From a virus: a DNA stretch of 22,101 nt. Both the position numbers and the translations under genes were made by a program. The DNA lies in IMG/VR virus record IMGVR_UViG_3300009537_000200, positions 1 through 22,101 of that record. One strand, given 5' to 3'. This document shows positions 1,292 to 5,925 of the stretch, one piece after another. The notes under the pieces are model-generated. The model was not told where the DNA came from, ran no database searches, and saw only the letters and a list, made by a program, of their open reading frames with translations. The number at the start of each line of letters is the position of its first letter. The stretch's first letter is position 1.

Positions 1292-2065
1292 CTAGCCGAC
1301 CGCGGCGGCCGTCGCCTCAAAGTGCATGCCGTCCAGCCGCGAGAAGTGCCCGCCCCAGTAGAAGCCGTGCTTGTTCGCCAGCGGCACCAGCTCACGCACG
1401 GAGCCGTGCTGCCCGACCAGCGCGGGCTGGTGGCCGATCCGGTTCTGCCGCACGTTGAGGTCGAAGGCGCTGCCGAACGCGTGATTGCTGAGAGTCTTGC
1501 GGCTGCCGCGGACGTAGCGCGCCGAGTACGTGCCCAGGCGAGTCAGCACCAGGTCGAGCAGCCCCGCTTTGTCCCACGCCGTCACGAGCCGTTGCAGCGC
1601 GGGCGCAGCGAGGCGGTGGAAGCGAACGGTGCGCCCAAGTTCGGGCAGCTCGACGCGGACGATGTTCTCGCGCGCCCAGTTGTCCAGGACCGTAACCTTC
1701 TCGGGGTTGGTGGCGGTGGGAGCGTGCTCGTACCCGAAGCGCCCGAAGACTCGCGCCCGTGCCGCGTTGCTCGTGAGCGGCTTCATGCCCGCAGGCTTGG
1801 GTGGCCAGTTCGCGCCCTCCTTCGAAGTGTCCGCGGGGTCCTGGTCGATGCCGCCGAATCCGAGCAGCAGCGCCTTGCCGTAGGTCTGCCCGCCGACCCA
1901 GCCATCGGGCTTGAGCCCGTGCTTGGCCTGGAAGGCGCGGGTCGCGTCGTCGGTCTTGGGTCCGAAGTCACCATCGACCGCGCCGAGGTACAGGCCTCGA
2001 CCGCGGAGGAACGTCTGCCACTGGATGACGGCCGGGCCGCGGCTGCCTTGTCGGATGGACTTCAC
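1292..2065 (-). CDS. Endolysin: peptidoglycan-binding domain plus M15 (VanY-like) peptidase
   Basis: This 257-residue lysin cuts peptidoglycan crosslinks or stem peptides at the end of infection. Residues 5-65 form a PG_binding_1 domain (RQGSRGPAV, then VDGDFGPKT and AFQ...GLKPDGWVG). Residues 130-255 form an M15 zinc peptidase: SNHAFGSAFDLN at 193-204 gives His195 and Asp202, and DGMHFE at 245-250 gives His248, the expected zinc ligands. No signal peptide is seen, so export would need a holin. The start is a GTG at 2065 overlapping the upstream stop (GTGA). It is the last gene of the leftward operon, just before a terminator. Confidence 0.93.
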   Translation of the reverse strand: MKSIRQGSRGPAVIQWQTFLRGRGLYLGAVDGDFGPKTDDATRAFQAKHGLKPDGWVGGQTYGKALLLGFGGIDQDPADTSKEGANWPPKPAGMKPLTSNAARARVFGRFGYEHAPTATNPEKVTVLDNWARENIVRVELPELGRTVRFHRLAAPALQRLVTAWDKAGLLDLVLTRLGTYSARYVRGSRKTLSNHAFGSAFDLNVRQNRIGHQPALVGQHGSVRELVPLANKHGFYWGGHFSRLDGMHFEATAAAVG

Positions 2066-2363: not shown

Positions 2364-2704
2364 ATCCCGCCCCTGCACTCGGTCATCGCCTGGCACGTGC
2401 TCTGCCGCGACATGCACGCCGGGTCCACGCGCAGCCCGCCCACGGCTTCGGCGAACAGCGCGCAGACGCTCTGCGGCCAGTCGGGCGTATCGAGCGCCCA
2501 GCGGCATTGGAGCTCCACGCCGCGAAGGTGCGCCTGCTCGCACGGGGTCAGTCCGGGCGGTGGCGCTGGCGGGTCGGGCAGCGGCTCGACGACGGGCGGC
2601 GTGGGCTCGACGGGGTCGGGGGTGACGCAGCCTGGCTGCAACAGCGCGGCCCACACGGCGAGCGTGGCGAGGACGAGCGCGATGGTGGTTGCTTCGCGAT
2701 TCAC
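2360..2704 (-). CDS. Proline- and cysteine-rich probable lipoprotein (outer-spanin candidate)
   Basis: The GTG at 2704 overlaps the protease stop (GTGA) and gives a 114-residue protein. Residues 1-22 form a signal-like hydrophobic stretch ending LLQPGC, with Cys26 as possible lipidation site. The lipobox is imperfect, since Leu lies at -4 rather than -3. Residues 27-52 are proline-rich, as in Rz1-type outer spanins, and seven further cysteines (55, 67, 81, 97, 104, 110 among them) follow, unusual for Rz1. A lysis role at the outer membrane is inferred from position and composition. It could instead be a periplasmic disulfide-rich protein. Confidence 0.6.
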   Translation of the reverse strand: MNREATTIALVLATLAVWAALLQPGCVTPDPVEPTPPVVEPLPDPPAPPPGLTPCEQAHLRGVELQCRWALDTPDWPQSVCALFAEAVGGLRVDPACMSRQSTCQAMTECRGGM

Positions 2705-3570
2705 CTCGCCACCGCCGTTCCGTCCATCCTGAGCGCGGCTGGCGTGGTCGAGAACACGAACGCATCCCAAAACCACTTGCTCGCGATCCATTCGCCAGGC
2801 ACCCACGCGCATGACTCAACGCGTCCGTCGCTGCCGTGCGTCTCAGGTGTCATCAGGAAACCCCACCCACGCCACGAGTTGCCCATCAAGAAATCAGGCA
2901 GCGAGTCGCGCGCTCCGGGCCGCGCACACATCAGGTACGTGGCGTGTCCACCCGCTGGCGCTTCGGAGTCGAGCGGCATCACCATCGTACGCTCGCCGCG
3001 ATGGCGGTCGAACGTGGCGCAGGTATCGAAGCTCACGACAGCGGGCGATTTCTCCAGCGCCTTGGCGAGATTCCAGACGTACGAATCACCCACGCCCGTC
3101 ACGCGCTGGTACTGCAAGTCTGCGACCGTCACACCCGCGCTCTCGGCCTCCATGCTTGACCGCTCGTTGATGCGCTTCGGGTCCCACGGAGCAAGCGCTT
3201 CTGGCGCAATGCCATACTTGCAGAATGCATCGACTGCGCCAACCGTGAACGCGCCCATGTCCGCGAGCCGCGTCGTGTACGGCAGCGACCACAGACGGGC
3301 CTTTGCGTAGGCGTCCATGTACGACATGCGGACGCGCGGGATGCCGCGGATGTTGCGAAACAGCTCGCCGCCGCCGACCACACCGTGTCCAGTGCATGAG
3401 CTTGAACCGAATCCGGGCGCATAGCCCGCGCTCTGGTCATGCCAGCGGTCCGCAAAGCGGAAGTGCTCGGGGTACGTCAGATCCGTGGAACCGCTCGCGG
3501 TCGCGCCCGCCCAGCGGTAGTCCGTCTCCTGGGAGCCGTGCGCGATGCAGCCCTTGGCGCGGTCGGTCAC
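2701..3570 (-). CDS. Papain-like (C1 family) cysteine protease
   Basis: This 289-residue protein has the papain-type triad in order: Cys59 in GSSSCTGHGV, His209 in GGHATYL, and Asn231 in GNSWRGWGF. Asn followed by Ser-Trp is the C1 signature. Gln46 (HDQS) may be the oxyanion glutamine, although it lies 13 residues before Cys59 rather than the usual 6, so there is an insertion. No signal peptide or propeptide is evident, suggesting cytoplasmic action or release by the holin. The GTG start overlaps the upstream stop (GTGA). It lies between two probable lipoproteins in the lysis region. Its substrate is unknown: host envelope protein, a neighbour, or a virion protein. Confidence 0.85.
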   Translation of the reverse strand: MTDRAKGCIAHGSQETDYRWAGATASGSTDLTYPEHFRFADRWHDQSAGYAPGFGSSSCTGHGVVGGGELFRNIRGIPRVRMSYMDAYAKARLWSLPYTTRLADMGAFTVGAVDAFCKYGIAPEALAPWDPKRINERSSMEAESAGVTVADLQYQRVTGVGDSYVWNLAKALEKSPAVVSFDTCATFDRHRGERTMVMPLDSEAPAGGHATYLMCARPGARDSLPDFLMGNSWRGWGFLMTPETHGSDGRVESCAWVPGEWIASKWFWDAFVFSTTPAALRMDGTAVAR

Positions 3571-4079
3571 GGCGCCTTCGCGGGCGCTGGCGAGGCACCA
3601 GGAGCCTCCGCGCTCGCCGCGTCGGGCGCCATAGCAGCGGGCTCGCCCCGCGGCGTCTCAATACTCAGCGGCTCGCACTGGACGGGCTGCGGCGCCGCTG
3701 CGGGTGGCTGGGCGGCTCCTGCGAGTAGGCGATCCAGTCCGTTGACGAGCAGCTCGCGGGCCAGGCCGTCGCCGCACAACGTGTGCAGGAAGTTGCCCGA
3801 CGCCAGCGGGCTCGCCCCTGCCATCTTCTGCGCCTGCGCGTACCTCGCTGCCAGCCGCGGGTCCTCGCGAACGACGCGCATCGCCGCCGCCTCGTTCTTG
3901 CTCGTCAGCCGCTCGCAGACGGCCAGCCCCGTGTCCACGATCGCCGCAGTCTCCTGCGGGGTCAGCGCGCCGCACCCGAGTCCGAGCACCGAAATCAGCG
4001 CAAGCGCTGGGAAGCGGGTCCTACGGAGGGGGGCCGTCAGGCCGTTTCCGGTGCTCGGGCTCCGATGCGTCATCGTCAT
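3567..4079 (-). CDS. Probable secreted or lipid-anchored protein, Pro/Ala-rich tail
   Basis: A 170-residue protein of unknown function. The N-terminus has arginines (20, 22) then a hydrophobic run ALALISVLGLGC with Cys36, giving a signal peptide with an imperfect lipobox. Residues 40-125 look helical, including a conserved-looking NFLHTLCGDGLAREL segment with a cysteine. Residues 125-170 are low complexity, rich in Ala and Pro, as expected for a periplasm-spanning linker. It starts at an ATGA overlap and ends in a GTGA overlap with the protease gene. It could be a spanin-like or chaperone partner of the lysis system. Confidence 0.6.
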   Translation of the reverse strand: MTMTHRSPSTGNGLTAPLRRTRFPALALISVLGLGCGALTPQETAAIVDTGLAVCERLTSKNEAAAMRVVREDPRLAARYAQAQKMAGASPLASGNFLHTLCGDGLARELLVNGLDRLLAGAAQPPAAAPQPVQCEPLSIETPRGEPAAMAPDAASAEAPGASPAPAKAP

Positions 4080-4417
4080 TGCACTGCCTCCAGCGATTCA
4101 GCGTGCACGATAAAGTGCACTGGACACATCTCGGGAAAGTTCGAGTCAGCGCAGTGGCACGCGCCTGCGCGCCGCGCTGCCATAGCCGCCTTGTCGCCCG
4201 CGTCGATGCCTGGGCCAAAGCCCCAGCGCGCGGCCCAGGGAGTAGCGTTTGGGGATAGATATACGTACCACCCGCGCCCTCGGGTTGGCGGTCGGGCGCA
4301 CAGATAGCCCCGGCGCGTTGACAGTTGCCAAGCCCAATGCATGGCGTTGTCGCCGTAGATGGTCAGCGGACCAATGTTGACGTGTCCACGCAGAAGCCTG
4401 CGAAACCTTTCACGCAT
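4076..4417 (-). CDS. Hypothetical lysis-region protein (113 aa)
   Basis: The ATG at 4417 is preceded by a strong GGGAGG ribosome binding site (4423-4428) with a 5-base spacer, which decides the start over the longer open frame. The product starts with a basic helix (RERFRRLLR), continues with an aromatic-rich beta-like segment (NIGPLTIYGD, then WYVYLSPNAT), and ends with three cysteines (CHC and MCP) that might bind metal. No transmembrane segment is evident. It overlaps the holin-like gene by 8 bases. Function is unknown. Confidence 0.6.
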   Translation of the reverse strand: MRERFRRLLRGHVNIGPLTIYGDNAMHWAWQLSTRRGYLCARPPTRGRGWYVYLSPNATPWAARWGFGPGIDAGDKAAMAARRAGACHCADSNFPEMCPVHFIVHAESLEAVQ

Positions 4418-4646
4418 CCGAACCTCCCATATCTGGCGGCGCCACGCTCGCGCGCCGCTTCGCTTCCCGCGCCTGTCCTTGCAGAATGCCCGCGGCGTGA
4501 ATGCCAGCCGTGGCCACCATGCCCAACCCAACCATATCGGGCCAGCTCTTGGCGGCCAGGCCAGGCAAAAACTCGGGCAGCATCAGAACGCCAACGCCCA
4601 ATAGCGCCAGCACAATCTGCTGCCAAAATGGGCGCGCCTTCCCCAC
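4410..4646 (-). CDS. Holin-like small membrane protein
   Basis: About 78 residues with two predicted membrane segments: residues 8-28 (IVLALLGVGVLMLP and onwards) and about 36-53 (MVGLGMVATAGIHAAGIL), followed by a polar, charged tail. This two-pass form fits small phage holins, and the gene lies four frames upstream of lysis effectors in one operon. The GTG at 4646 is chosen because AGG lies 8 bases upstream. A TTG at 4652 would add two residues but has poor spacing. No family motif was recognised, so the holin call rests on topology and location. Confidence 0.6.
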   Translation of the reverse strand: MGKARPFWQQIVLALLGVGVLMLPEFLPGLAAKSWPDMVGLGMVATAGIHAAGILQGQAREAKRRASVAPPDMGGSDA

Positions 4647-4655
4647 GGTCAAAGC

Positions 4656-5111
4656 CTACCCCGAAGCCAGCGCCGCTCGCAAGGTGCGGTCGCTGGGCTT
4701 GTCGTGGACGTGCTCGGGCGGAACGTCGCGCACCTCGTCCCGGTACCCCGTCCAGACCTCGATCGGCATCCCTGGGAAGTTGCAGCGCACGAAATGCACC
4801 AGGTCGTCGCCTTGCTGCGGCTGGCCCTGAAACCGCCAGTCAGTCACCACGACGTCCACGCCGTTCGCGCGCGATAGCCGTTTGATCGCGTCGTCCACGC
4901 TGCTCACGCCATCGACATCAACGCCAAGCTCCGCGCCCCACACGTCGGACATGGTCTTGATGATGCTGGGTTCGTCATCGACCAGCAGCACGCGCTTGGG
5001 ACGGGGCGGAATGCTCGCGCGCTTGAGCGCTGGGCGGAACAGCAGCCACAGGATGAGCAGCCCCAACAACGCCGCGGCAGCAAACGCCAGTGCTTGCATG
5101 CCCATGCTCAC
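4656..5111 (-). CDS. Membrane-anchored response-regulator receiver (REC) protein
   Basis: A 151-residue protein with one N-terminal membrane segment (residues 6-25) followed by basic residues (RPALKR, RPKR), predicting a cytoplasmic C-terminus. Residues 40-148 form a CheY-like receiver domain: LLVDDEPS with acidic pair Asp45/Asp46, phospho-acceptor Asp91 in VVVTDW, Thr121 in WTG exactly 30 residues later, and Lys138-Pro139 in HDKPSD. All residues needed for phosphorylation are present. There is no DNA-binding or enzyme output domain. It starts in a GTGA overlap with the coiled-coil gene and lies just before the holin-like gene. A role in gating or timing lysis through host phosphorelay is inferred, not shown. 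Confidence 0.85.
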   Translation of the reverse strand: MSMGMQALAFAAAALLGLLILWLLFRPALKRASIPPRPKRVLLVDDEPSIIKTMSDVWGAELGVDVDGVSSVDDAIKRLSRANGVDVVVTDWRFQGQPQQGDDLVHFVRCNFPGMPIEVWTGYRDEVRDVPPEHVHDKPSDRTLRAALASG

Positions 5112-5485
5112 CTAGCCCGCCTGATGGGGCGCTTGATCGCCTCGCGCACCGCGTCGTCTAGGTCCTCAACTTTCGCCTCAAGCCCGCCAACTCGACCGCT
5201 CAAGCGGTCGAGCGCGCCCTCTACGTTCTCGCGCTTGTGCGCGCCGTTCGCCTGATCGGCTTGGACCTTCGCGACAATTCCCGCGTTGACCTCCGCCCTG
5301 CTCTCAACGCGCCCGAGGCGATCGAATGCAAGCAAAATGGCGCCGCCCACGACGGCCGCGGTTACGATCACGCTCACCCACCCGGCAACAGGCATGCTCA
5401 CGGACGATCGCGGCGTGATGGCCATTCGGTGCGCGTCGCTACTGCTCGACGATTTGCGCTCAGGCGGCCGGGTCTCGTCGGTCAT
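5108..5485 (-). CDS. Single-pass membrane protein with coiled coil (inner-spanin or holin-accessory candidate)
   Basis: A 125-residue protein: a polar, Ser-rich N-terminus with arginines, one membrane segment at about residues 34-54 (GWVSVIVTAAVVGGAILLAF), then a long coiled coil (about 60-118) with charged heptads, ending in a basic RPIRRAR tail. The form resembles inner spanins or XhlA-type holin accessories. It starts in an ATGA overlap and ends in a GTGA overlap with the receiver-domain gene, so the two are probably made together. The specific partner is unknown. No signature motif supports a firm family. Confidence 0.65.
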   Translation of the reverse strand: MTDETRPPERKSSSSSDAHRMAITPRSSVSMPVAGWVSVIVTAAVVGGAILLAFDRLGRVESRAEVNAGIVAKVQADQANGAHKRENVEGALDRLSGRVGGLEAKVEDLDDAVREAIKRPIRRAR

Positions 5486-5925
5486 CGTTCGAGGCCTTGG
5501 GGTTGGGCGCGTGCTGGCTCGGGCAAGGTATCGGCGCGGACGCGCGTACTCACGTCAACCGTCACACTGCGACCGCGCGGTGTCGCCGGGTCCGCGCCCA
5601 CGGCACGCTTCGCGCGGGTGACCGCATCCGGTGCGGTGCTCAATGCGGATGCCGCGGGAAGCTGAACGCCGCGACCCTGCAACGAGCGCACGAAGTCGTC
5701 CACCTCGACCACCCATCGATCGCGGTACTCGATGGGCTCGCAGTAGCGCAGCGTGACCCACTGCCCGCCAGTGTCGAGCCCATCACCCTCAGCCTGCGCA
5801 CGCGCGGCCTTCGTGTCAGCGTAGTACGCAGCCCACACCGCATCGCAGAACGCGCGTGCAGCGGCTTCGGTCGCGAAGCTCATCACCTCGCCGCGTGGCT
5901 CGTAGTCTGGTAGCGGTCCTGCCAT
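5482..5925 (-). CDS. Hypothetical protein downstream of fibre genes
   Basis: A 147-residue protein of unknown family. Residues 1-75 are mixed helix/strand with many aromatics (FATEAAARAFCDAVWAAYY, then WVTLRYCEPIEYRDRW). Residues 90-147 are Pro/Arg/Ala-rich and probably disordered. It lies between the LamG-like tail gene and the lysis genes, where fibre-assembly helpers are common, so a tail-fibre chaperone is one possibility. It is separated from the upstream stop by only 3 bases and overlaps the next gene as ATGA. Confidence 0.55.
   Translation of the reverse strand: MAGPLPDYEPRGEVMSFATEAAARAFCDAVWAAYYADTKAARAQAEGDGLDTGGQWVTLRYCEPIEYRDRWVVEVDDFVRSLQGRGVQLPAASALSTAPDAVTRAKRAVGADPATPRGRSVTVDVSTRVRADTLPEPARAQPQGLER

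Follow-up and report, generated by a model that had tools for sequence, protein, structure and literature searches.

A membrane-anchored receiver protein among predicted lysis genes of a virus record suggests a possible route from host signalling to phage lysis

Introduction

How phages match lysis to the condition of their host is an old question. In lysis systems of the XhlA/XhlB type (PBSX), a small protein with a coiled coil and a transmembrane (TM) segment is encoded within the lysis cassette, and to our knowledge no receiver protein has been described together with such systems. Small membrane regulators are also part of the lysis cassette of phage N4 (gp62 and gp63), for which the wording "Receiver domain" is in use; there it names a region of the pinholin that lacks the fold of a response regulator receiver (REC), and it was thus rejected as a REC (PMC12642591). 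A divergent receiver-like fold is encoded by jumbo phages (cREC), but it is tied to NAD/ADP-ribose processing enzymes and in the same work never to lysis genes (PMC7824862). Among cellular proteins, EpsW, CheY and DivK consist of a REC domain only and act by protein contact, in the case of the single-domain regulator EpsW on the membrane enzyme EpsZ (PMC12802240). These proteins are soluble and have no link to lysis, whereas the protein described here carries its own TM anchor.

The closest phage genes are those for V22 gp30, A5 gp11 and R8W gp48, which were read as auxiliary metabolic or signalling genes or as part of a host recognition module (PMC7289586, PMC10579305, PMC8228385). Like the gene studied here, they encode stand-alone RECs, follow tail-fibre genes and directly adjoin a small coiled-coil gene and genes of the lysis type; unlike it, they encode soluble proteins, and they were not published as lysis genes. 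In the open-access literature, we found no report of a lysis role for a phage receiver.

In this study, we analysed a virus record of 22.1 kb, the whole of which is called the window in the following. It carries myophage baseplate and tail genes and has a GC content of 65%; the closest cultured phage is Shewanella phage SppYZU01, with 54% identity in a baseplate protein. A sequence-only reading of the window had proposed that a membrane-anchored receiver sits inside its lysis cassette.

Results

The gene at 4656..5111 (minus strand, as all genes of the window discussed below) starts with GTG and encodes a protein of 151 amino acids. The analysis confirmed that it consists of one membrane anchor and a true REC domain. 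The predicted TM segment covers residues 7-25 (5037..5093; hydropathy 2.63) and is directly followed by the basic stretch RPALKR, so that the REC is predicted to be cytoplasmic. Residues 39-151 (4659..4997) were assigned to the REC domain by profile, alignment and model. In the profile search that the sequence-only reading had proposed as a check, PF00072 matched residues 41-126 with 32.5 bits (E 1.1e-7), above the curated cut-off of 30.2. All five catalytic residues named in that reading were found at their positions, namely the acidic pair D45 and D46, the predicted phosphoacceptor D91 (codon 4839..4841), T121 and K138. The latter two fall into REC columns that are conserved in the core alignment (A8); a looser alignment including degenerate homologues misplaces them. 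The single anchor held, and so did the lack of an output domain: residues 39-151 contain REC only, and a DNA-binding output domain was absent from the window protein as well as from R8W gp48 in the domain search.

An AlphaFold2 model of the REC core, built from 14 sequences, reached a pLDDT of 90 and showed the (beta/alpha)5 receiver fold. Its closest PDB structure was the receiver 2rdm (TM-score 0.79), and the V22 receiver ranked sixth among the viral models matched. The region from beta4 to alpha5 is short in the model and alpha4 is nearly absent, as suggested by the short gap between T121 and K138. Single-sequence fold prediction of the whole protein was poor.

The surrounding open reading frames overlap or are closely spaced, and the REC gene is co-directional with an M15 endolysin gene 2.6 kb downstream (1292..2065; PG_binding_1 and Peptidase_M15_4 by Pfam and PHROG). 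Directly upstream, a gene for a candidate REC partner with TM segment and coiled coil (5108..5485; 125 aa, assigned by hydropathy and heptad score) overlaps the REC gene by four bases (GTGA). Its heptad score exceeded 500 of 500 shuffles. The protein matches phrog_4153 ("membrane protein") and phrog_2658 ("hol-like chemotaxis") weakly, and its topology is ambiguous with basic residues on both flanks of the TM segment. It is in turn overlapped by four bases by an ORF of 147 aa without assigned family (5482..5925). Downstream of the REC gene, a small membrane protein of 80 aa (4410..4652) with two hydrophobic segments, one clear and the other weak, is a holin candidate. Because it has no match in Pfam, PHROG or NCBIfam, the holin label rests on size and hydropathy only. 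The placement between a membrane coiled-coil gene and a small membrane gene is right as to position, and the designation holin-like is weaker than claimed.

Further downstream follow an ORF matching phrog_32401 (4076..4417) and a lipoprotein-like ORF (3567..4079), which by eye has an N-terminal hydrophobic segment and the lipobox-like motif LGLGCGAL; it is a candidate for an outer spanin, and has no family match in Pfam or PHROG. The next ORF (2701..3570; 289 aa) appears papain-like by eye (SSCTGHG, GGHATYLM, GNSWRGWG) and has no Pfam match. In V22, an annotated permuted papain-like amidase is encoded just upstream of the coiled-coil/REC pair.

The sequence-only reading had named related phages with the same gene beside lysis genes as a further check. 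Relatives of the window were searched via the endolysin. In the viral contig L004, whose endolysin is 43% identical, two RECs were found in the same place, followed downstream by a coiled-coil/TM gene and the endolysin gene; one is intact (35.7 bits) and the second is degenerate (18 bits). The degenerate copy (L004:5678-6148) directly follows the intact one. The receiver was absent from the other endolysin relatives among the viral contigs, including the nearer ones L005 and L012-L022. L005 retains the endolysin gene together with genes for a TM/coiled-coil protein, a small membrane protein and a lipoprotein-like product; its small membrane and coiled-coil genes and those of the window have no mutual sequence match. 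The expectation was borne out by RECs in lysis cassettes of several lineages, but not by these nearer endolysin relatives. In bacterial genomes, endolysin relatives are widespread; the only case of a REC directly upstream (L049) is part of a chromosomal regulator of the LytTR type and was rejected.

For recurrence, cultured phages and viral contigs were searched with phage receivers as the only queries and without selection for lysis genes. For the window REC and its coiled-coil partner, neither source yielded useful close relatives. Carriers of stand-alone RECs were the Alteromonas phages R8W/H4 (H4/4), R9Y1-3, XX1924/PB15, A5, V22 and PT11-V19, and the IMG/VR contigs L120, L121, L123, L124 and L129 have the same setting. 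R8W and H4/4 belong to the Autographiviridae, A5 to the Schitoviridae and V22 to Myoalterovirus. The RECs V22 gp30, A5 gp11 and R8W gp48 are 16-20% identical to the window protein. All stand-alone phage RECs inspected adjoin a small coiled-coil gene, usually a membrane one, near genes for holin, spanin or endolysin. For comparison, a set of phage genes sampled and typed by hand contains small one-TM genes of the partner kind at about 1 in 105 CDS.

The gene orders differ between carriers. In R8W, holin, TM/coiled-coil protein, REC and a membrane protein follow one another; in R9Y1, TM/coiled-coil protein, REC and a GH108 endolysin. XX1924 and PB15 have an XhlA-type protein with coiled coil and TM segment, then REC, a DUF5675 or M15 endolysin and GTA_holin_3TM. 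In A5 and V22, coiled-coil protein, REC, an Rz-like spanin and a two-TM protein are encoded in this order, with the endolysin next in A5. Holins were recognised by family match in R8W, XX1924 and PB15. The coiled-coil partners of R8W and R9Y1 are homologous (E 8e-11 in a single comparison), and those of XX1924 and PB15, which thereby resemble the XhlA/XhlB-type systems, match phrog_937 ("hemolysin"). The partners in the window and L004 have no PHROG match in common with those of the Alteromonas phages. The partners of A5 and V22 lie below the hydropathy threshold for a TM segment, and their link to the membrane is therefore uncertain.

A5 and V22 share modules (PMC10579305). As the neighbours of A5 gp11 include a match to Rz-like spanins, an annotated endolysin and a protein with two TM segments, the published module extends into the lysis cassette. 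The genes gp12-gp14 of A5 (L113:4416-5751) were published without a function as part of the host recognition module; by their products, they resemble genes for an Rz-like spanin and a holin-like protein with two TM segments, and the endolysin comes next. Since the carriers mostly infect Alteromonas, much of the recurrence may stem from horizontal exchange of a single module, which makes the number of independent origins uncertain; the cases from outside the search by REC similarity are two, the window and L004.

The catalytic residues (D-D, D, S/T and K) are retained in all intact REC copies, at identities of 13-47%. Two degenerate copies lack catalytic residues, the PT11-V19 receiver and the second REC of L004. 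For receiver pairs with measurable dS, dN/dS was 0.07-0.25; judged from their sequences, the receivers are under purifying selection. The PT11-V19 receiver (L110:4998-5450), without phosphoacceptor Asp and Lys, still lies beside a coiled-coil gene and can be called a pseudo-receiver. Histidine kinases (HATPase_c) were searched in eight virus records (the window, L004 and six others, several of them fragments) and none was found. A phage-encoded kinase for the REC thus appears unlikely, and the phosphate would come from the host.

Discussion

The gene content of these loci, which belong to several unrelated phages, suggests that the time of host cell lysis may in some phages be open to influence from a bacterial signalling pathway. 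For the window, we propose as the most likely role that the REC works as a phospho-switch at the step of membrane coiled coil and holin, by which the state of host kinases would tune lysis; we consider this role to have about an even chance of being correct. The REC aspartate would receive its phosphate from a histidine kinase of the host or from acetyl phosphate, and the phosphorylation state would alter the contact with the coiled coil of the membrane partner. This altered contact would favour or delay holin assembly, so that the timing of lysis would follow host physiology. In most phages, the membrane link would be provided by the partner gene, and in the window additionally by the anchor of the REC protein itself. 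In favour of this proposal are the identity and fold of the REC with its intact catalytic residues, the tight coupling to a TM/coiled-coil gene, the recurrence of the gene pair beside lysis genes, the low dN/dS and the lack of a histidine kinase in the eight records; EpsW, a single-domain regulator that contacts the membrane protein EpsZ, is a precedent (PMC12802240). Against it count the absence of a REC from the nearest endolysin relatives, the two copies deficient in catalytic residues, the window's holin candidate without family match, the possible exchange of a module among Alteromonas phages, the ambiguous topology of the window's coiled-coil gene, the low TM scores of the A5 and V22 partners and the lack of a PHROG match shared by the partners of window and L004 with the Alteromonas ones. 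Somewhat more tentatively, with confidence a little below even, lysis timers of this sort may form a class of their own among phages: a receiver encoded by the phage and phosphorylated by host kinases would gate the holin via a membrane coiled-coil partner, and the time point of lysis would be set by bacterial two-component signalling.

The main rival holds that the gene is a decoy or auxiliary gene of host signalling. The REC would then drain phosphate from a host response regulator or mimic it and thereby rewire the host late in infection, the site in the late operon being merely convenient. In the V22, A5 and R8W studies, the genes were given an auxiliary role in metabolism or signalling (PMC7289586, PMC10579305, PMC8228385), and intact catalytic residues without a detectable phage kinase are in line with such a function. 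However, it leaves unexplained the constant coiled-coil neighbour, the overlapping frames, the anchor of the window protein and the position of the REC within sets of lysis genes that vary from phage to phage. Moreover, PhoB-like DNA binding is excluded for R8W gp48 and the window protein, as neither has an output domain; on balance, we regard this explanation as unlikely. A pure change of swimming is very improbable: a CheY mimic binding the flagellar motor or a chemotaxis kinase of the infected cell, located among lysis genes by accident, would be in keeping with the CheY-like fold and residues and with published phage genes named CheY-like, but the window protein is held at the membrane by a TM segment of its own and resembles CheY no more than it does other receivers, and the coiled-coil neighbour would again be without explanation.

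The persistence of pseudo-receivers in PT11-V19 and L004 implies that contact may matter without phosphate. This would suit a membrane complex of coiled coil and REC as a sensor of superinfection or membrane stress; such a complex would postpone lysis or keep out a second phage (lysis inhibition), and phosphorylation would modify its action. The small membrane regulators of the N4 lysis cassette were proposed to act in lysis inhibition (PMC12642591). Family searches revealed no homology to the N4 or T4 regulators, nor does any sequence feature point to superinfection, and we judge a sensor of this kind to be quite improbable. Least credible is the chance pickup of a host gene that contributes to neither lysis nor signalling. 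REC is among the commonest bacterial domains, which makes such an acquisition conceivable, but purifying selection, conserved catalytic residues and the repetition of the same setting in many phages speak against it.

If the phospho-switch proposed here is true, a receiver placed among the lysis genes would connect bacterial signalling directly to the holin, and genes published as auxiliary metabolic genes would be re-interpreted. The carriers A5, V22, R8W and R9Y1 are in culture with known Alteromonas hosts, so that the idea is testable now.

Further observations

Surveys of phage receivers are inflated by database records. A generic REC search of cultured phages returned mostly records resembling fragments of host chromosomes, and this applies to many "phage" records under OR84xxxx-OR85xxxx, MT83xxxx, CAKLQ* and AGRM/AFYI. 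Several single candidates were also set aside. L002 and L003 encode multi-domain proteins beginning with a REC and of host-derived appearance; the receivers of L125-L128 look host-type, lie outside a lysis setting and were left out of the count. Pseudomonas phage Y11 was rejected as a carrier after checking, and in Stenotrophomonas phage Bhz63 the gene encodes a full-length multi-domain regulator that adjoins another signalling-type gene away from the lysis genes.

In the contigs L123 (6117-6851) and L124 (6111-6845), closely similar genes of 244 aa lie between the spanin-like and two-TM genes and possibly represent a homing-type element.
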